Shown here one piece after another: positions 18,294 to 35,952 of a stretch of 44,448 nucleotides of DNA. The number at the start of each line of letters is the position of its first letter. Position 1 is the first letter of the stretch. The stretch comes from Verrucomicrobiota bacterium (lineage in GTDB: Bacteria > Verrucomicrobiota > Verrucomicrobiia > Limisphaerales > JACDHS01), in assembly GCA_013820875.1 (NCBI GenBank), contig JACDHS010000028.1, positions 1 through 44,448 of the forward strand. Direction: 5' to 3'. The notes beneath the pieces are model-generated. The model searched no databases and had not been told where the DNA came from. It saw only the letters and a list, made by a program, of their open reading frames with translations. The position numbers and the translations under genes are program-made.

Positions 18294-19205
18294 TCACGTC
18301 CGCACCATTACAACCGCACTCCGCACACTTTCCCCACCATTATTCAGCGCAGAGATGGTGACCTCCACCTCCGCATTCGCTGGCAACTCTTCAAACATGA
18401 AATCCGTATCCGCAGGCGTGCCCACCACTCTCGGTTCTTCATCCACTCCCACCACTTTGATGCTTACCCGGTAATACTCTGCTCCCGGTGCTTTATCCCA
18501 CTGCACCGCCACCGCATTCTCCGCAACCGAAACCACCGTGACATTCGTCGGCGCATCCGGACGCACCTTTGCGCCCGGCTTGTTGAAACCAAACGCTGCC
18601 CAACGCTCATCCAGCGGGGTGAGTCGAACACTCAATTCCTTAATCAATGCCCGCAACTGCTTGCGAACCTGGGCCGCCCGGAGATCGCGTGCCGTCATCG
18701 CTAGTTCCCAGATCGTCTTCTGGCGATTCACCGCATTGCGCGCGGCGATTAACTCGTTGTGGACCGTGGCGGCGCGTGCTGCGGTTGCCTGCAGCGGCGT
18801 GTTTTCATGCTCGGGATGCGCCGTGAGATAAGCTTTCAACGACAATAATCCCGCCGACAGCTTGTCTTCATTGCGCGGCACGCTCAGAGAATGGACAAAC
18901 CCGGTTTCATCCCAGGCGGAGGAATATTGTTTGCCCAAATGCGGTTTCAAGACATCGCGCGCCACGTACATATAATCGCGCCCAGTCGCCTTGGCGGTCC
19001 TGAACGCCTTCAGTCGTAACAACAGCTCCGCTTTGGCTTGTTTGGTGGCTGTTTCACCTGCAATCAGACCGGAAAGACTGGTGTTCATCGCGTCCGACGT
19101 CACCAGGCTCAGGGTGAGTGGACCCGCATAAAGTTCTACCCCGGCAATCGCTGCCGAGAATTGCGCCACCACCGTCCCATAGCTCTTTTGAATATCATTT
19201 TTCAT
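18294..19205 (-). CDS. Helical protein with C-terminal fibronectin type III domain
   Basis: A 303-residue protein from ATG 19205 (the frame is open 16 codons upstream). Residues 1-215 are mostly helical with many Ala and Arg and no recognised family. Residues 218-303 are an FN3 domain: PDAPTNVTVVSV, then AVAVQWDKAPGAEYYRVSI and a closing NNGGESVRS. There is no signal peptide, so it may be cytoplasmic or leave by another route. It is 96 bases upstream of mqnD on the same strand. The function is unknown; FN3 domains usually mediate protein or carbohydrate contacts. Confidence 0.75.
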   Translation of the reverse strand: MKNDIQKSYGTVVAQFSAAIAGVELYAGPLTLSLVTSDAMNTSLSGLIAGETATKQAKAELLLRLKAFRTAKATGRDYMYVARDVLKPHLGKQYSSAWDETGFVHSLSVPRNEDKLSAGLLSLKAYLTAHPEHENTPLQATAARAATVHNELIAARNAVNRQKTIWELAMTARDLRAAQVRKQLRALIKELSVRLTPLDERWAAFGFNKPGAKVRPDAPTNVTVVSVAENAVAVQWDKAPGAEYYRVSIKVVGVDEEPRVVGTPADTDFMFEELPANAEVEVTISALNNGGESVRSAVVMVRT

Positions 19206-19284
19206 CAGTATTGACTCACTTTCTGTTGTCAGAACCGTTCCCGTCCCGAACAAAGCATGTTATGCCACAAAGGGACCATTCAAT

Positions 19285-19320
19285 GTACTGGCAAAATTTG
19301 TCCCCAAATTTTGCCAGTAC
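19285..19320. repeat. Perfect 16-bp inverted repeat, 4-base loop
   Basis: GTACTGGCAAAATTTG (19285-19300) is exactly complementary to CAAATTTTGCCAGTAC (19305-19320), with TCCC between. Neither strand carries a T run after the stem, so it is not a standard terminator. It lies 79 bp upstream of the FN3 start. It could be an operator, a REP-like or transposon-end remnant, or a structured RNA element. Confidence 0.95.
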
Positions 19321-19400
19321 TCCGGCCCCCTGATTCTATTGATGATTCTGCATGAAAGTTTTTTTTATCTTGACGTTGGGAGAGGAAGACAGTGAAGCAC

Positions 19401-19674
19401 CCTCCGACGTCGGAAGGCCACTCGGTCGGACCCGCAGACACACCCTCCGACGTCGGAAGGCCACTCGGTCGGACCGACAGACACACATTCCGACGTCGGA
19501 AGGCCACTCGGTCGGACCGACAGACACACCTTCCAACGTCGGAAGGTCACTCGGTCGAACCAACAGATACACCTTCCAACGTCGGAAGACCACTCGGTCA
19601 AACCTGCAGACACACCTTCCAACGTCAGAAGGCCACTCGGTTGAACCGACGGATACACCTTCCGACGTTGAAGG
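19401..19674. repeat. 43-bp tandem palindromic array, six full units plus a part
   Basis: Units start at 19401, 19444, 19487, 19530, 19573, 19616 and 19659, an exact 43-bp period. Each early unit holds the 12-bp palindrome TCCGACGTCGGA and the inverted pair CGGTC/GACCG. Units 1-3 are nearly identical and later ones accumulate C-to-T and G-to-A type changes. There are no unique spacers, so it is not CRISPR. The period is not a multiple of three, so it does not encode a repeat protein. Confidence 0.95.
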
Positions 19675-19815: not shown

Positions 19816-20763
19816 ATGAGCTTGTCTCCCCTCACAATCAAAAATCCAAACGATCCCACAGGCAAGTGGCACTCAATTTATCAATGGGTGTTCGAGATGT
19901 TGATGTATGTCACCGCTAACGGTCAGGACGAACCAACGCCACCGTTCGGAAAGACTCCCACACCATCTGAAAACGAGGCCTGTGATGCATGGCTGCGTAA
20001 AGTCGTTTTTATACGGGAGGTTGATGAACGACACGTGCCGGAACGATCACACTTGAGTTGGCTCTTCGCTCGTCTCCTTGTCGCGCGGGAATACGTGGAT
20101 GATCAGATTAGAGGCTTCGCCGCTCCTCCTCCGGGGCAAAGCGGGAACGACACCATGTTGCATCTACTGGTCGATCGATGGCATGAAGAACTCCACAAGC
20201 TCTGGTCGGACTTCGCTTATGATGGCAAGAATGTCCGCTTCCGCGATCGCACGGTTATGGTTCGTCCGAACAAAACGCATTGGTTGACCGGAGAAGATCC
20301 AGGGAATACGGATGACACAGCAGTCACTTGGAAGAACCTGCACAACTTTGCAGAAATGTTGGCTGCGGCAATGTGCCAACGGGTGGAGATGAAGCTGCCT
20401 TTCGGTGAAATGCCCACCCCGAAAATGGATGCACGTTGCGACAATTGGTTCAAAAAGTTTTTCAGTTCCGAAAATGCCCGGAATTCTGTGGAAAGCTCGC
20501 CGCTGGACCTTGCCCCATGGTTGGCCGCACGACTGGTGGTTGCCACCGGGATTGCATTTGGAAATATGGAAATGAACCCAAACCCGCCCACAGAAAAAGC
20601 ATTGTGGATCTGCCTGCGCAACATCGTCATCACTCGATGGAACCAATCCGCTAAACAACTTTGGAAGGGCATGTACATGAAGGAAGATGGCAAAATCGGT
20701 TTCCGCGGAGATCCAACAGTTGATCACCTCCAATCCAAAAGCATCTTCTTTTCCATGAACTGA
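19816..20763 (+). CDS. Unrecognised Trp-rich family protein, tandem paralog A (two-module)
   Basis: A 315-residue protein of a family I do not recognise, with no signal peptide or membrane helix, so probably cytoplasmic. It is an internal duplication: module 1 has CDAW (56-59), WLFAR (82-86), RW (121-122) and LW (129-130); module 2 has CDNW (208-211), WLAAR (235-239), RW (274-275) and LW (282-283). Each module starts with PFGxxPTP. The C-terminus DHLQSKSIFFSMN is almost identical to that of paralog C. It is predicted to be largely helical. It opens a three-gene cluster with gaps of 20 and 17 bases. No catalytic motif is evident. Confidence 0.85.
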   Translation: MSLSPLTIKNPNDPTGKWHSIYQWVFEMLMYVTANGQDEPTPPFGKTPTPSENEACDAWLRKVVFIREVDERHVPERSHLSWLFARLLVAREYVDDQIRGFAAPPPGQSGNDTMLHLLVDRWHEELHKLWSDFAYDGKNVRFRDRTVMVRPNKTHWLTGEDPGNTDDTAVTWKNLHNFAEMLAAAMCQRVEMKLPFGEMPTPKMDARCDNWFKKFFSSENARNSVESSPLDLAPWLAARLVVATGIAFGNMEMNPNPPTEKALWICLRNIVITRWNQSAKQLWKGMYMKEDGKIGFRGDPTVDHLQSKSIFFSMN

Positions 20764-20783
20764 TCTATACATTCATAAACCAC

Positions 20784-21329
20784 ATGATCAATCGTTTCCC
20801 CGGCAACCAATGGAAGAGCGGAGTCTATGGCCCTGATGAACCCATCGAATCCCTTAAAATAGAAAAAATTGAGCCCTGCAGTGCGGCCCATTTCGGATCC
20901 AAGTTTCCAGACACAGGCCTTTTCAAGCAATTTGCGATGGGACCATGGCACGAACTGCGCAGGCACATGTTGCTGTTCGCCGGTCATGTCATGCCGGCGA
21001 ACGGGAAGGAAGTTTCACCACGACGCGATCCCGGAGCAGAAATCGAAAAGCGATGTGATCAATGGATCGTCCTCTTCTTGATGGCCGTTGATGAAGGCGA
21101 GGTGCTCATGCCGCCACCAAAAGATCTTCGCAAATGGCTTTATGCCCGGGCATTGATGGCACTCTCATTGATTGATTATGAGATTCGCACCCAGGAAAAA
21201 CGAGAGGAACCCGACATGAAGAACAATTTCAAAAGCGAGATTGGATCACGTTTGGTCATCTTTTGGCAGGAAATGGGCAAGCAACGCTGGCTGGAGACCG
21301 ACCCGGACAAAAGTTCCACAGCAGAGTAG
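20784..21329 (+). CDS. Unrecognised Trp-rich family protein, tandem paralog B (single-module)
   Basis: A 181-residue relative with one copy of the module: CDQW (91-94), WLYAR (118-122), then FW and RW near 160-170. The first 50 residues are unlike the larger paralogs, and the two-module C-terminus is missing. It sits between the two 315-residue genes, 20 bases after A and 17 before C, so all three are probably one transcript. It may be a shortened duplicate that kept a function, or a decaying copy; the intact frame favours the former. Confidence 0.75.
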   Translation: MINRFPGNQWKSGVYGPDEPIESLKIEKIEPCSAAHFGSKFPDTGLFKQFAMGPWHELRRHMLLFAGHVMPANGKEVSPRRDPGAEIEKRCDQWIVLFLMAVDEGEVLMPPPKDLRKWLYARALMALSLIDYEIRTQEKREEPDMKNNFKSEIGSRLVIFWQEMGKQRWLETDPDKSSTAE

Positions 21330-21346
21330 AAATCCAATTCAACGTC

Positions 21347-22294
21347 ATGAATCGATTCTCCCGAACAACAAAGAACCCGAACGATCCCGAAGGAAGGTGG
21401 AATCACGTCCAAAGCTGGGTTTTCACCCTCCTCATGATTGTCACACAGAATGGGATCAACGAGCCCACGCCACCACTGGGCAAAACTCCATCCCACGAAG
21501 TCGATGCAGAGTGCGATGAATGGGTTCGCAACCTGGTAAAGCAGGATACAGTCGGACTGAAGAACATCCCCAGCCCGAAGTTGGCTCCATGGCTTTGGGC
21601 CAGACTGCTGGTGGTTCAGGAATACATTAAAGATTTGATCGAAAGCCAAGCTCTTGCGCCCAACCATCCAGGAGGAGTGCAACCTGCCTTGGAAGATATT
21701 CTCGTGAAACAGTGGCACGAGCACCTCCACAAACTTTGGTCCCAGTTCAGTTACGAGGACTCAATGTTAAATTTCGGTTCACGCATGGTGCTTTTTCGGC
21801 CAGGTCGTGATCACTGGACAATTGCCCGGAATACCGATGAAGACATGATGGCTGTGACTTGGAAGAACGTGCATTTCATCGCTGACTTGTTGGCAGTGGC
21901 GCTAAGCCAGAGAGCAAAGTTGAAACTTCCGTTTGGTCAATTGCCCACGCCGGAAATCGATGCCCGTTGTGATAAATGGTTGAAGAGGTTTTTCCCGTGC
22001 AAGGATCCTGAGAAGATGGTGGACACCTGCCCGATGGCATTGGCGCCATGGCTGGCGGCACGAATGCTCACAGCCACCGGGGTTGCATTTGGAAACCTTG
22101 AATACAACCCGAATCCACCACCTCACCTATCTGTCTACTGCGTTTTGGAAGATCTCGTGATCCCCCGATGGAACTTCACTATGAAACAGTTGTGGCTGGG
22201 CGTTTACATGAAGAAAGACGGCAAAATCGGATATCGCGGAGATCAAACGATGGATCATCTTCAATCCAAAGGCATCTTCTTCTCCATGAATTAA
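21347..22294 (+). CDS. Unrecognised Trp-rich family protein, tandem paralog C (two-module)
   Basis: A 315-residue protein, exactly as long as paralog A and alignable to it end to end: both begin with a KNPNDPxG[KR]W block and end DHLQSK[SG]IFFSMN. Module 1 has CDEW (56-59) and WLWAR (82-86); module 2 has CDKW near 208 and WLAAR near 235. The ATG at 21347 is preferred over upstream codons because it reproduces the length and N-terminus of paralog A. It is the last gene of the trio; a broken XRE regulator faces it. Confidence 0.85.
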   Translation: MNRFSRTTKNPNDPEGRWNHVQSWVFTLLMIVTQNGINEPTPPLGKTPSHEVDAECDEWVRNLVKQDTVGLKNIPSPKLAPWLWARLLVVQEYIKDLIESQALAPNHPGGVQPALEDILVKQWHEHLHKLWSQFSYEDSMLNFGSRMVLFRPGRDHWTIARNTDEDMMAVTWKNVHFIADLLAVALSQRAKLKLPFGQLPTPEIDARCDKWLKRFFPCKDPEKMVDTCPMALAPWLAARMLTATGVAFGNLEYNPNPPPHLSVYCVLEDLVIPRWNFTMKQLWLGVYMKKDGKIGYRGDQTMDHLQSKGIFFSMN

Positions 22295-22298
22295 GAGA

Positions 22299-22451
22299 TT
22301 ACGCAACCTCCAGCAATACCTCTGGATGCTTTGCCGCAATCTTCAGGAGAACCTTTGCTGGCCCAGTCGGTTTGCGGCGGCCTTGTTCCCAGTTTTGCAA
22401 CGTATCCATGCTGATCCCCAGGATGTCAGCAAACTTCGACTGAGAAAGTTC
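22299..22451 (-). pseudogene. Truncated XRE-family (HigA-like) helix-turn-helix regulator
   Basis: Reading leftward from 22451, about 50 codons encode the C-terminal part of an XRE domain: LSQSKFADILGISMDTLQNW, then EQGRRKPTGPAKVLLKIA, ending at the stop at 22299-22301. This matches HigA-type antitoxins. The codon just upstream is TAG (22452-22454) and no start exists, so the 5' half is missing. The break coincides with the repeat remnant at 22457. The intact form was probably the antitoxin of a toxin-antitoxin pair; no toxin is left nearby. Confidence 0.8.
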
Positions 22452-22582: not shown

Positions 22583-25500
22583 ATGCCCCAAACGGCAGAG
22601 AATCAACAAGAAAGGCTTGATGGCCTCCTGCAACATGCATTGCTTTTGGATCTGGAAGTTTCTCATCAAGGGAAAATCTTTAAGATTGGAGCAGTGCTGG
22701 GAAATGCGACGTTGCCGCGCTCCGGTCAATCCAGCGCAACACTGCATGAGTTGTCTGTCATGGGCCAGTCCGCGAACTGCGTTCTTGGACATAATTTGGT
22801 TTCGCACGATTTAACAATCCTGCGTGAAACTGCTGCCAATCATCCGCTGCTAAAATTGCCAGTCATCGACACACTGCTCTTGTCGCCAATAGCGTTTCCT
22901 GAAAATCCTTATCATCGGCTCATCAAAGATTACAAACTGGTTCGCGAAAGCGTTAATGATCCAGTGGCGGACGCTCGGCAGGCCGCTATGGTTTTCCAGG
23001 ATGAATTCCGCTCTTTAAGTGGACTGAGACAAACCGAGCCGCGCCTTTTCGAGTTGCTCCATTTTTTGCTGGCCACACCCGATGAAACGACGCCCTCCAT
23101 ATCCAAAGGAATGGAGCTATTCTTTGGCGCGCTCGGTGGGAGCATTCCGTCCAGAACAAGAGCGCTTGAGCTTTGCCGTGAGTTGTTCGCTGAATGGGCA
23201 TGCAACAATAAGCCAGTGGAGGAATTACTCTTTCAAACCGCCAACTCGCGTTTGTCTCTAGCCTATGCACTGACATGGCTGCGTGTTGCAGGAACCAATT
23301 CTGTGCTCCCACCCTGGGTGCGTTTGCAACACCCATTAACAGGCAAGTTGATCCAGTGGTTGCGGGAGTCTCCGTGCGATTCACCCGCTTGTTCATACTG
23401 CCGCAAAGTGTATGACGCTCGGGAACAGTTAAGCCGATTTTTCAATTGGACCGAGTTCCGAGCTCTTCCGAAGAGCCCAGGCGGCGGCAGTCTGCAGCAA
23501 GAGATTGTTGAAGCTGGCCTGCGTAACGAATCAATGCTCGCGATTCTTCCCACCGGCGGTGGCAAGTCGATCTGCTTTCAATTGCCCGCGCTGACCCGCA
23601 ATTTTCGTCGTGGTGTCCTCACCCTTGTCATCTCTCCGCTACAAGCATTGATGAAAGACCAGGTGGAAGGATTGATTCGTCGCACCGGCACACCTTTCGC
23701 CGCGGCGCTCTCTGGATTGCTGACCCCGATGGAGCGGGCCGATGTTCTTCAACGCGTACGGATGGGCGACGTCGCTTTGCTTTATATCTCTCCGGAACAG
23801 TTGCGTAACCGTTCTTTTTGCAAAGCGATTGCGCAACGCGAAATCGGCTGCTGGGTTTTCGATGAAGCGCATTGCCTTTCCAAATGGGGTCACGATTTTC
23901 GGCCCGATTATCTTTACGCCGGTCGTTTCATTCGCGAGTTCGCGAGGGAGCAAGGTGTTGAGATTCCGGCCATCGTTGGATTCACTGCGACTGCCAAGCG
24001 CGATGTTAAAGAAGAGATCATTACGTTTTTTCAAACTGAAACCGGGCGTGATCTAAAACTGTTCGAAGGCGGGGTGGAACGAAACAATTTGAAGTTCCAG
24101 GTGCAGTCCATCACCAGGCACGGGAAACTGGAAAGAATTCACGACCTGCTCTCGGATCGGTTGGGCCAGACTTCGGGCGGGTGCGCGATTGTTTTCCGGG
24201 CGACGCGAGATGCCACTGAACAGACCGCCAAATTTCTACAGGAGAAGGAATGGTCTGCCGCAAACTTCCATGCCGGATTAACTCCACCAGAAAAGAAACG
24301 TATTCAGGACGAATTTCTTGCCGGGAACACGAAAGTCATTTGCGCCACAAATGCTTTTGGGATGGGCATAGATAAGGAGAATGTGCGCCTGGTGATTCAC
24401 GCCGATACGCCCGGATCTCTGGAGAATTACCTGCAGGAAGCCGGACGCGCAGGACGCGACGGTCTGTTGGCTGAATGCGTTTTGCTTTACGACGAAGATG
24501 ATTGCGAAAAGCAGTTTCGGCTCGGTTCTTTTTCGGAATTAACCCGCCGCGACATTGCACAGATCCTGCGCAGTTTACGCAAATCGGCGCGTGGAGAAAA
24601 AGAGGAGATCGTTATCACCGCGGGCGAAATCCTGCGCGACGAAGACATTCAAACCAGCCTGGACGCGCAGGATCGCAATGCCGACACCAAGGTGCGTGCT
24701 GCCATCTCCTGGCTGGAGCGCTCTGGCTTCCTGCAACGTGATGAGAATGTCACCAATGTTTTCCAGGCCCGATTGTTGGTGCGGGATTTGCACGAGGCTG
24801 AGGCCAAAATGAATTCCTTGAATCTTTCCCAGAATGAAAAGGCACTTTGGCTCGCCATTTTGCGGGAGTTTATCAATGCCGGAATCCAGGACAGCTTGAC
24901 GGTGGATCAACTCGCGGTTTTGCCGGAGTTCGCTTCCTATGCCAAAGGTGGTCCCAACAGTGGCGCGAAAGTGAACCCCGAGTTTATCAGTGGCAAAATC
25001 CTGAAAATTTTGGGGAGCATGGCGCAAGTCGGGATCATGAAGCGCGACTTGTTGCTGAGCGCGTTCGTGCGTCACAAAGTCGGTGATCACTCTCGCATCC
25101 GCTTCGATCGTGTCGTGCAACTTGACCGCAAGTTGCTCGACCTCCTGATAACGGAAGCTCCCGATCCGGAAGGCTGGCTGCCTCTTTCGCTCCGGTTGAT
25201 CAACCAGCGCCTTTGTGATGAGGGGTTCGCATCTTCGACTGAACTGATTCGCCAACTCCTCAAGAGCCTCACAGAAGATGGACGAGGGTTCGCCGGCACA
25301 CATGGCAGCATTGAAGTCCGTTACATCGCGCAAGACTCCTACCGAGTGCGGGTGCGTCGCAGTTGGTCCGACATCAGTGCCCTGGCGGAAAAACGCAGGC
25401 GAACTGCTTCCGTGGTGTTGGATGTTCTCTTTGCGAAGATACCGCGTGACGCTTCCGCGTCGGCTGAGCTTCTGATTGAATTCTCCTTTGATGAACTGCG

Positions 25501-27799
25501 CAAAGCGATCGAAAGCGACTTGCTCTTGCGTTCAGATTTGAAAGACATCGACGCTGCGCTGGAACGCGCCTTGATGTTCCTGCACGAACAACAGGTAATC
25601 ATTCTACAACAAGGGCTTGCCGTTTTCCGTTCGGCCATGACGATTCGGTTGCAGCCGGGGGCCAAAGGCGAACGATACAAATCCAGCGATTACCAACCGT
25701 TGGAACATCACTATCGCGAACGAATTCTTCAGGTCCATGTCATGAGCGAATTCGCCCGGCGCGGAGTCGAAGCGATTAGTGAAGCTCTCCGGCTTGTCCT
25801 CGCTTATTTCACGCTGGACAAGGAAGAGTTTCTTCAAACCTATTTCCGATCCAAACTTCAACTGCTTCAATACGCGACCACTGCGCGTTCTTTCCAGCGC
25901 ATCGTTTCGGACCTTAACAATCCAGCACAGATAAAAATCGTTACCGCGCCAGCCAGCCGCGACATGTTGGTTCTTGCGGGCCCCGGTTCAGGAAAAACAA
26001 AGACTGTGGTGCATCGCTGCGCCTACCTGTTGCGTGTCGAACGCGTTCGCCCGCAAAGCATCCTGATCTGTTGTTTTAATCGCAGTGCCGCACTGGAATT
26101 GCGGCGCAGGTTGGTGGACCTCACTGGGGATGACGCGCGCGGGGTGACTGTGCTGACTTACCACGGATTGGCGATGCGTCTCCTGGGTTATTCCTTTATG
26201 GGAAGAACGAATACGGCTGAAATCAATTTCGACGAGTTGATCAAAGACGCTGTAAAGCTGTTGCGCGGAGAGACAACTCTGCCCGGAATTGAGCCTGACG
26301 ACGCGCGTGACCGTCTGTTGGCCGGGTTTCAACACATCCTGGTGGATGAATATCAGGATATTGACGAACCCCAGTATCAAATGATTAGTGCCATCGCAGG
26401 GCGAACGCTTGATGACGCGGATCTCAAACTGTCCATTCTGGCTGTCGGTGATGACGATCAAAATATCTATTCCTTCCGAGGCGCCAATGTGGAATTCATC
26501 CGCCGCTTTCAAGACGACTACAAAGCCGAAATTTATCCCCTGGTCGAAAACTACCGCTCCACTCGCTACATCATCGAAGCCGCCAATAGCCTGATCAGTG
26601 CGAATTCGGACCGGATGAAAACGGAGCATCCCATTCGTATTGATCGTTACCGGGAGATGTTGCCGGCAGGGGGCGTTTTTGCGCAGAGAGACGATCTCAC
26701 AAGAGGGAAGGTTCAAGTTATCCGGGTGAAAGATGGGGAAGGACAAGCTCGCGCTGTCATCTCTGAAATCCGGCGTCTGAAGCAGATTGGCGTCTCTGAC
26801 CTGTCGCGCATTGCGGTGTTGTCCAGTCATCATCGCGATCTTGCCCAGGTTCGCACATTAGCGGAGCAGGCTGGCGTTCCGATTGTGTGGTATGCGGGGC
26901 AGGGTGGAATACCGCAACTTTACCAGGTGCGCGAGATCTACAGTTTTCTGCAACACCTGGTGGAGAGGAAGAATTTGATGGTCCGTGCTTCCGCGCTGAT
27001 CGACACAGCGGAAAAGCTTCTGGAGAAAGAACCACTGAATCGGTGGCTGCAATTTCTTTGTCGTATAGTGGAAGCCTGGAAAGTGGAGTCTAATGACGCC
27101 GAGCTTCCCGCGCAATTCGCCTTGGAATTTCTGTATGAAACCTGCGCCGAAAGCCGTCGCGATTTAAATTATGGCGAGGGTGTAAGGTTGAGCACCGTGC
27201 ATTCGGCTAAAGGGACAGAATACGATCACGTCTTGCTGACTGGATCGTGGCCGCTGCTTCAACAACCATCCAGACAAGAAGAAGCCCGGCGTGCCTTCTA
27301 TGTTGGAATGACCCGCGCTCGTCAAAGCCTCAGCATATTTGACCGTGCCGATGTCGGTCCATCGTTGCCGCAGTCTTTGAGCGGTCCTTCGATTCTTCAA
27401 CGAGCGTCTGCCGACGATCCTGCAACACCCCCCATAATGTTCCTGAACTACGCAACCCTTGGCATGCAGGATATTCATCTCAGCTTCCCAGGGCGGTTCA
27501 ATCAAGCGCACCCAATCCACGCCGCTCTTTCCTGGTTGCAACCCAATTCAAAGCTGCAAATGCGCGAAGAGAATGGCAGCGTGAGTCTTTTCAACGACAC
27601 CGGCGCGCAGGTTGCCCGACTCTCCCGCAAATCCGAAAGCGCATGGTTGCCGCGACTTGGCTCCATTCGCGAAGTTCGCGTCCTCGCCATGGTGCATCGG
27701 AGCGTCGATCAGGAAACCGTCTCGACCCGTCGTGATCAATACAACGTATCTGAATGGGAAATTCCTATCGTCGAACTCTGCTACGAAGATTCGCTGTAG
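22583..27799 (+). CDS. DnaQ-like exonuclease / RecQ helicase / UvrD helicase fusion
   Basis: A 1738-residue DNA-processing protein. Residues 1-145: DEDD-type 3'-5' exonuclease with Asp23/Glu25 (LDLEVS), Asp76 (GHNLVSHD) and Asp130 (NDPVADA; the usual His is Asn125). A CX4CX2C cluster lies at 265-273. Residues 290-760: RecQ SF2 helicase with Walker A LPTGGGKS near 323, DEAH at 427-430, GFTATA, and the motif VI segment QEAGRAGRDG. Residues 1090-1620: UvrD SF1 helicase with GPGSGKT near 1132, VDEYQDID near 1253, VGDDDQNIYSFRGA, and HSAKGTEYD. An unassigned 110-residue tail follows. The fusion suggests coupled unwinding and trimming in repair, recombination or defence. No accessory partner is certain. 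Confidence 0.92.
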   Translation: MPQTAENQQERLDGLLQHALLLDLEVSHQGKIFKIGAVLGNATLPRSGQSSATLHELSVMGQSANCVLGHNLVSHDLTILRETAANHPLLKLPVIDTLLLSPIAFPENPYHRLIKDYKLVRESVNDPVADARQAAMVFQDEFRSLSGLRQTEPRLFELLHFLLATPDETTPSISKGMELFFGALGGSIPSRTRALELCRELFAEWACNNKPVEELLFQTANSRLSLAYALTWLRVAGTNSVLPPWVRLQHPLTGKLIQWLRESPCDSPACSYCRKVYDAREQLSRFFNWTEFRALPKSPGGGSLQQEIVEAGLRNESMLAILPTGGGKSICFQLPALTRNFRRGVLTLVISPLQALMKDQVEGLIRRTGTPFAAALSGLLTPMERADVLQRVRMGDVALLYISPEQLRNRSFCKAIAQREIGCWVFDEAHCLSKWGHDFRPDYLYAGRFIREFAREQGVEIPAIVGFTATAKRDVKEEIITFFQTETGRDLKLFEGGVERNNLKFQVQSITRHGKLERIHDLLSDRLGQTSGGCAIVFRATRDATEQTAKFLQEKEWSAANFHAGLTPPEKKRIQDEFLAGNTKVICATNAFGMGIDKENVRLVIHADTPGSLENYLQEAGRAGRDGLLAECVLLYDEDDCEKQFRLGSFSELTRRDIAQILRSLRKSARGEKEEIVITAGEILRDEDIQTSLDAQDRNADTKVRAAISWLERSGFLQRDENVTNVFQARLLVRDLHEAEAKMNSLNLSQNEKALWLAILREFINAGIQDSLTVDQLAVLPEFASYAKGGPNSGAKVNPEFISGKILKILGSMAQVGIMKRDLLLSAFVRHKVGDHSRIRFDRVVQLDRKLLDLLITEAPDPEGWLPLSLRLINQRLCDEGFASSTELIRQLLKSLTEDGRGFAGTHGSIEVRYIAQDSYRVRVRRSWSDISALAEKRRRTASVVLDVLFAKIPRDASASAELLIEFSFDELRKAIESDLLLRSDLKDIDAALERALMFLHEQQVIILQQGLAVFRSAMTIRLQPGAKGERYKSSDYQPLEHHYRERILQVHVMSEFARRGVEAISEALRLVLAYFTLDKEEFLQTYFRSKLQLLQYATTARSFQRIVSDLNNPAQIKIVTAPASRDMLVLAGPGSGKTKTVVHRCAYLLRVERVRPQSILICCFNRSAALELRRRLVDLTGDDARGVTVLTYHGLAMRLLGYSFMGRTNTAEINFDELIKDAVKLLRGETTLPGIEPDDARDRLLAGFQHILVDEYQDIDEPQYQMISAIAGRTLDDADLKLSILAVGDDDQNIYSFRGANVEFIRRFQDDYKAEIYPLVENYRSTRYIIEAANSLISANSDRMKTEHPIRIDRYREMLPAGGVFAQRDDLTRGKVQVIRVKDGEGQARAVISEIRRLKQIGVSDLSRIAVLSSHHRDLAQVRTLAEQAGVPIVWYAGQGGIPQLYQVREIYSFLQHLVERKNLMVRASALIDTAEKLLEKEPLNRWLQFLCRIVEAWKVESNDAELPAQFALEFLYETCAESRRDLNYGEGVRLSTVHSAKGTEYDHVLLTGSWPLLQQPSRQEEARRAFYVGMTRARQSLSIFDRADVGPSLPQSLSGPSILQRASADDPATPPIMFLNYATLGMQDIHLSFPGRFNQAHPIHAALSWLQPNSKLQMREENGSVSLFNDTGAQVARLSRKSESAWLPRLGSIREVRVLAMVHRSVDQETVSTRRDQYNVSEWEIPIVELCYEDSL

Positions 27800-29539: not shown

Positions 29540-29602
29540 ATCCGGCTAGCTGGGCGTGCGCTGGTTCGAAGTAGTTTTGTGTAAGGGATTTTCGACACCC
29601 AA

Positions 29603-29917
29603 CAAACCTTGCTGAAGGTCAAAAAAGCCTTTTTGCGACCCCCGCAAGGGTTGCGGACAGTCGAAAAAGCAATTTTGGGGAGTGCGCAAAGGTTGCTGAT
29701 AGTCAAAAAACGCTTTTCCGACACCCAACACACCTTGCGAAGAGTCAAAAAAGGCTTTTGGAGATCCTCGCAAGGTTTGCGGACAGTCAAAAAAGCAATT
29801 TTGAGGAGTGCGCAAAGGTTGCTGACAGTCAAAAAACCCTTTTTTGATACCCAACAACCTTTGCTGACTCCCCAAAAACCCTTTTTTGCCGGTGCGCAAA
29901 CCCTCACGAGAGCTTAA
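29603..29917. repeat. 42-bp tandem array with 126-bp higher-order period
   Basis: Units start at 29603, 29645, 29687, 29729, 29771, 29813 and 29855, with a partial unit at 29897. Units three apart resemble each other most (29645 with 29771, 29687 with 29813), giving a 126-bp higher-order repeat. The consensus includes GGTTGC, GACAGTCAAAAAA and a CTTTT run. Three frames are open through it with 14-residue repeats, two on the minus strand, so an encoded repeat protein cannot be picked out. Confidence 0.93.
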
Positions 29918-35770: not shown

Positions 35771-35952
35771 TCAGGCCATATTCAGCCGAGGATGAAGATT
35801 TCTCTCGGGTGGAGTGATGGAGTGATGGAGTGCTGGAGTGGTGGAGTGGTGGAGTGGTGGAGTGGTGGAGTGGTGGAGTGATGCTGTTCCAATACTCCAA
35901 TACTCCACCCCCCCCCTTCAGGCCATGCCCCGCCCGTGATGAAGATTTCTCT
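35771..35952. repeat. 35-bp direct repeats flanking an octamer array
   Basis: Two 35-bp copies lie at 35771-35805 and 35918-35952 (147 bp apart), sharing TCAGGCCAT at the start and GATGAAGATTTCTCT at the end. Between them is an array of nine TGGAGTGN octamers (35810-35881), then inverted copies of the same word (ACTCCA at about 35895-35908) and a C run. The layout looks like an insertion or a duplicated segment with internal expansion. Confidence 0.9.

Follow-up and report, generated by a model that had tools for sequence, protein, structure and literature searches.

Three consecutive genes in the window, the 44,448-nucleotide stretch of DNA analysed here, encode proteins built from a repeated module, and the question is what kind of family they represent and what it may do. 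These genes, designated A, B and C, are members of a real, undescribed and lineage-restricted protein family of an uncultured Verrucomicrobiota bacterium.

The A, B and C genes and their module

Gene A (positions 19816 to 20763, forward strand) encodes a protein of 315 amino acids that, as judged by the open reading frame, its translation and the module alignment, has modules at residues ~15–135 and ~169–288 with a linker between them. Gene B (20784 to 21329, forward strand) encodes 181 amino acids with a single module at residues ~45–172 and an N-terminal part modelled at low confidence. Gene C (21347 to 22294, forward strand) again encodes 315 amino acids with a double module, and its start is an ATG located within a longer open reading frame that begins with TTG. 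The three genes lie on the same strand and are separated by 20 and 17 bp; hence, coordinates and translations agree with the original prediction in gene lengths and spacing. Gaps of 17–20 bp seem too short for the attC sites of integron cassettes. A promoter scan found no promoter, and an Rfam search of the whole window gave no match.

The A and C proteins are 51% identical overall and, as had been noted, share the N-terminal sequence KNPNDP and the C-terminal sequence FFSMN; B ends in DPDKSSTAE. The CDxW and WLxAR motifs are at residues 56/82 and 208/235 in both A and C, and at 91/118 in B, and the distance between them is 26–27 residues in all five modules. Thus, the five predicted copies of one module were located. 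The further claim that RW and then LW follow in every module holds more loosely, as B has FW and then RW. Alignment of the N- and C-terminal modules gave scores of 127 for A and 123 for C, as compared with means of 28–29 and maxima of 46–54 for shuffled sequences, and the module of B aligned with the N-terminal module of A and the C-terminal module of C with scores of 99 and 81 (shuffle maxima 53 and 51, respectively). Each of the module-to-module scores (81–127) was set against 500 shuffles, with an overall shuffle maximum of 46–56, and the internal repeat is therefore far above chance.

In an alignment of 14 modules, the module of ~110 residues includes W, C-D, W, R and W residues that are invariant and one further W that is nearly so. 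An AlphaFold model of B calculated with the 14 aligned modules includes four main helices (residues 54–68, 84–103, 113–136 and 149–171) preceded by a short one, with a pLDDT of ~90 in the core and low confidence for the N-terminal ~43 residues. In a full-length model of C, based on two sequences, the helix pattern occurs twice, at lower confidence. The module is thus predicted to be tryptophan-rich and all-helical.

No Pfam, NCBIfam or PHROGs match above the curated cut-off and no PDB sequence match was obtained for A, B or C, and the domain searches revealed no helix-turn-helix (HTH) or other DNA-binding domain in the module. Foldseek found no PDB or BFVD match to the module core (lowest E values 2.6 for PDB and 0.45 for BFVD, TM about 0.2), and likewise no fold match to the weaker full-length model. 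Comparison of 12 modules with family models gave hits at chance level only, such as one to PF20796 (PDDEXK_13); the E value of 0.076, given by one of the 12 members, is far from significance, and the module core is predicted to be all-helical. The family is therefore undescribed, with neither a sequence nor a fold relative in the libraries searched, which bears out the original view of an unrecognised, modular and duplicated family.

The C-D pair, invariant in 14 of 14 core-family modules, lies at the start of helix 2, and an enzyme that uses it might be envisaged. However, the alignment includes no invariant His and no second acid or base, and the fold searches matched no enzyme. In the most distant relatives, from genomes G832 and G763 (see below), Cys is not kept at the aligned position, whereas W, R and W are retained. 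Hence, a catalytic cysteine is unlikely and a structural or binding role is favoured; an enzyme of this type is considered very improbable.

Distribution, duplication and dispersal of the family

The window genome (G000) has four family genes, namely A, B, C and one on contig C77. Nine copies on eight contigs were found in the metagenome-assembled genome Verrucomicrobiales bacterium RYN_621 (G001, JAQGOU01), the only other sampled genome of the same GTDB family. One of these, on contig C366, is truly frameshifted; the genes on C615 and C187 are intact, as the stops reported inside them are terminal stops. A search with alignment A1 at E ≤ 0.001 of 293 genomes of the order and 388 of the phylum gave no match besides G000 and RYN_621. 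Among 384 sampled genomes of the class, two had a relative: a clear one in G832, at E 8e-9 (96.5% in hhalign, with E 9e-10), and a weaker one, at E 5e-4 (89.5% in hhalign), in G763. Both are single-module proteins, each with a same-strand gene close behind, and the G763 relative has TrbI-like conjugation genes a few kilobases away. Matches in G026 and G536 were weak, and one in G934 (E 3e-4) was distrusted because it lies antisense within another open reading frame. No homologs were found in the phage, plasmid and viral contig collections (IMG/VR; two viral_contigs scans), leaving an origin of the family in phages or plasmids unsupported. The copies are thus almost all in G000 and RYN_621, and the family is nearly restricted to one GTDB family, in keeping with the lineage restriction proposed at the outset.

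In a maximum-likelihood tree, the N-terminal module of A pairs with that of C, and the C-terminal module of A with that of C; therefore, a two-module protein arose first and was duplicated afterwards. The B protein clusters with three single-module RYN_621 proteins, from another genus, with 97/98 support and 45–50% identity. Hence, B belongs to a separate, older single-module subfamily that is also present in the sister genus, and the tree and the identity values rule out a truncated A or C, so that the description of B as one shortened copy has to be abandoned.

Pairwise dN/dS values were 0.26, 0.09, 0.28 and 0.26 for the four pairs with measurable dS; the A/C and B/C187 pairs are saturated and stand outside these values. 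The family is under purifying selection. The adaptive or diversifying selection invoked for the expansion is therefore unsupported, measurable dN/dS being only 0.09–0.28.

The copies on C87 and C559 (C559a) share 90.8% identity over a stretch that starts 52 bp ahead of the ATG and runs to one position past the stop codon, and both flanks are unrelated. Other pairs of copies have similar block boundaries at lower identity, and for these the decay of non-coding DNA could be an alternative cause of the block edges. The copies have thus dispersed as gene-sized units.

Surroundings of the trio in the window

Upstream of A is a gene for an fn3 protein (positions 18294 to 19253, reverse strand) of ~310 amino acids with a C-terminal fibronectin type III domain. 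The fn3 family has 52 matches in the 5.7-Mb window genome and 80 in RYN_621, some of them fragments; several copies are 90–93% identical at the amino-acid level, and the high-identity copies have in common a gene-sized DNA block of about 0.8–1.1 kb. This amplification is more striking than the A-B-C family itself. Genes for fn3 proteins occur near the module copies on C12, which is the locus in the window, and on C188, C145 and C87, which is unsurprising given 52 and 80 matches per genome, and for the same reason fn3 was dropped as a conserved partner of the module.

Between the fn3 gene and A, a 43-bp tandem array of 6.3 copies (19398 to 19668) is strongly palindromic (CACCTTCCGACGTCGGAAGG...). 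With the array as query, 24 matches were found in G000, some near fn3-family copies, and none in RYN_621. As the array also adjoins another fn3-family copy, it is probably outside the A-B-C unit. Other repeats in the window are a perfect inverted repeat of 16 nt around a 4-nt loop at 19285–19320, a nested 126-bp/42-bp tandem repeat at 29589–29867, and the octamer GGTGGAGT, repeated nine times at 35808–35880.

Downstream of C, a gene at 22583 to 27799 (forward strand) encodes a 1738-aa fusion of a RecQ-type (DEAD/Helicase_C) and a UvrD-type helicase, as identified by Pfam. It begins 288 bp 3' of C and is the closest defence-type neighbour and a candidate member of the A-B-C unit. The N-terminal ~200 residues of the fusion look like a DEDD exonuclease by eye, and Pfam has no match for residues 1–306.

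Between C and the helicase gene, positions 22299 to 22448 on the reverse strand encode a C-terminal fragment of 49 residues that resembles HTH_3 and the MqsA antitoxin and lacks its N-terminal part. This fragment is probably a toxin-antitoxin remnant. Its position just 3' of C is consistent with an immunity or antitoxin array, in which A, B and C would neutralise varied toxins. Like the immunity arrays of polymorphic toxins (PMC3482391), A-B-C is a tandem set of divergent, small and soluble paralogs, and the family is lineage-restricted. It differs from those arrays in that the copies are mostly solitary, dN/dS is low whereas rapid diversification would give values near or above 1, and no toxin or trafficking partner was seen. 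The search for such partners covered the neighbours in the window and the loci of the relatives, with part of the neighbours profiled, and recognised no toxin, secretion, or CDI/Rhs gene beside any examined copy. Thus, an immunity or contact-dependent family, as first proposed, is not borne out, and an immunity or antitoxin array is considered unlikely.

Defence-type genes near the module copies and the possible role of the family

At six of ten loci, including the window, the module copies have a defence-type gene no more than ~5 kb away, the families counted having been chosen post hoc. On C559, a type IIG restriction-methylase (RM) gene sits between two module copies. A complete Shango SngABC system is 1.6 kb from the copy on C615, and a gene for a CHAT-astacin protein is 1.2 kb from that on C646. 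On C87, a gene for a DUF6602/NucC-like protein is 0.3 kb from the copy, with Mrr_N and PDC-S31 genes nearby, and on C366 PDDEXK plus UvrD (nuclease plus helicase) lies 0.3 kb from the broken copy. The sixth locus is C12, with the RecQ-UvrD fusion downstream of C. No obvious defence gene was seen at the other four loci (C77, C145, C188 and C187). Although copies lie near Shango, type IIG RM and NucC-like/DUF6602 genes, none of the Pfam, NCBIfam or PHROG models fits the module, and we know of no described component of these systems that corresponds to it.

The sole CHAT gene and the sole SngB gene of RYN_621 are each less than 5 kb from a module copy, and one of the seven N6-methylase matches in this genome is within 5 kb of one; as a rough estimate, ±5 kb around the nine RYN_621 copies covers no more than about 1.4% of the genome. 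A PADLOC scan covered neighbouring genes and, as control, 20 arbitrarily chosen RYN_621 genes, which were single genes and not whole loci. One control gene was matched clearly and a second one weakly, and the genes directly adjoining the copies showed no clear difference from this small control. None of ten further genes close to module copies was matched by PADLOC. PADLOC also matches generic helicases that are not defence genes. Each defence family occurs beside the module just once, with no recurring single partner. The association between the module and defence genes is therefore suggestive and not proven, since the families were chosen post hoc, the control consisted of single genes, and four loci are without an obvious defence gene. 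The original prediction holds by half: no known domain matches the family, yet the copies have no single conserved neighbour either, although defence-type genes recur near them.

Two further protein families were seen at these loci. HTH/WYL-type regulators encoded at L013:3581-4705 and L014:11991-13109, near the copies on C145 and C87, are a homologous pair with 59% identity. An uncharacterised family of ~230 amino acids with no Pfam match is encoded near the copies on C615 and C187 (L031:5486-6193 and L032:9043-9741; 52% identity) and directly adjoins the C615 copy.

The C559a copy and the IIG RM gene, the C87 copy and the DUF6602 gene, and the C366 copy and the PDDEXK gene are divergently oriented with short gaps of 0.3–0.4 kb, an arrangement that would suit a regulator, acting on transcription or assembly, of the restriction or helicase genes alongside. 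Controller and WYL regulators of defence (e.g. BrxR, PMC9122589) are likewise small, adjoin defence genes and are sometimes divergent from them. However, the module has neither an HTH nor a WYL domain, the WYL-like proteins near C145 and C87 being products of separate genes, and the orientation differs at the other loci. A regulator is thus improbable.

The dispersal of gene-sized blocks into unrelated flanks would also be expected of a generic lineage-specific accessory or selfish family that moves as single genes into variable islands, in which defence genes gather as well, and plays no part in defence, its function being either housekeeping-accessory or purely selfish. The integrase-like, transposase-like and varied unrelated neighbours of the copies, the broken copy on C366, and the presence of fn3 as a second dispersed family in the same genomes all agree with such a family. 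Conversely, the proteins are under purifying selection, the unique defence systems of the genome adjoin copies, and the A-B-C operon keeps three divergent members together. This explanation is a real possibility, though a doubtful one.

Our preferred explanation, itself tentative, is an accessory role for the family in defence islands. A, B and C represent a new family of cytosolic proteins with a narrow distribution, in which the modules are either single (B-like, about 150–190 amino acids) or a fused pair (A and C), and the copies would serve defence or mobile islands as accessory genes. The gene-sized dispersal and the TrbI-like conjugation genes near the weak G763 relative are in line with this view. 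The module would be non-enzymatic and may bind a partner via a surface set by the conserved W and R residues, the specific partner-binding step being a guess. Bound to its partner, it could modulate, scaffold or sense for the neighbouring antiviral machinery; A and C, with two modules each, would be bivalent, and the three proteins may be co-expressed as a single complex. It is rather unlikely, though conceivable, that the module is a new component of anti-phage or anti-plasmid defence, namely an interchangeable helical sensor or adaptor for RM, Shango, CHAT and RecQ-UvrD systems of one Verrucomicrobiota lineage, and that A-B-C with the helicase forms a new defence system.

The genes studied thus define an orphan family with a confidently predicted helical module, purifying selection, single-gene dispersal and recurrence beside unrelated defence systems of the host. 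If the link to defence is not functional, it would be one more lineage-specific orphan family; if it is functional, the module would be an accessory part that several defence systems have in common, in a phylum that has been little studied.
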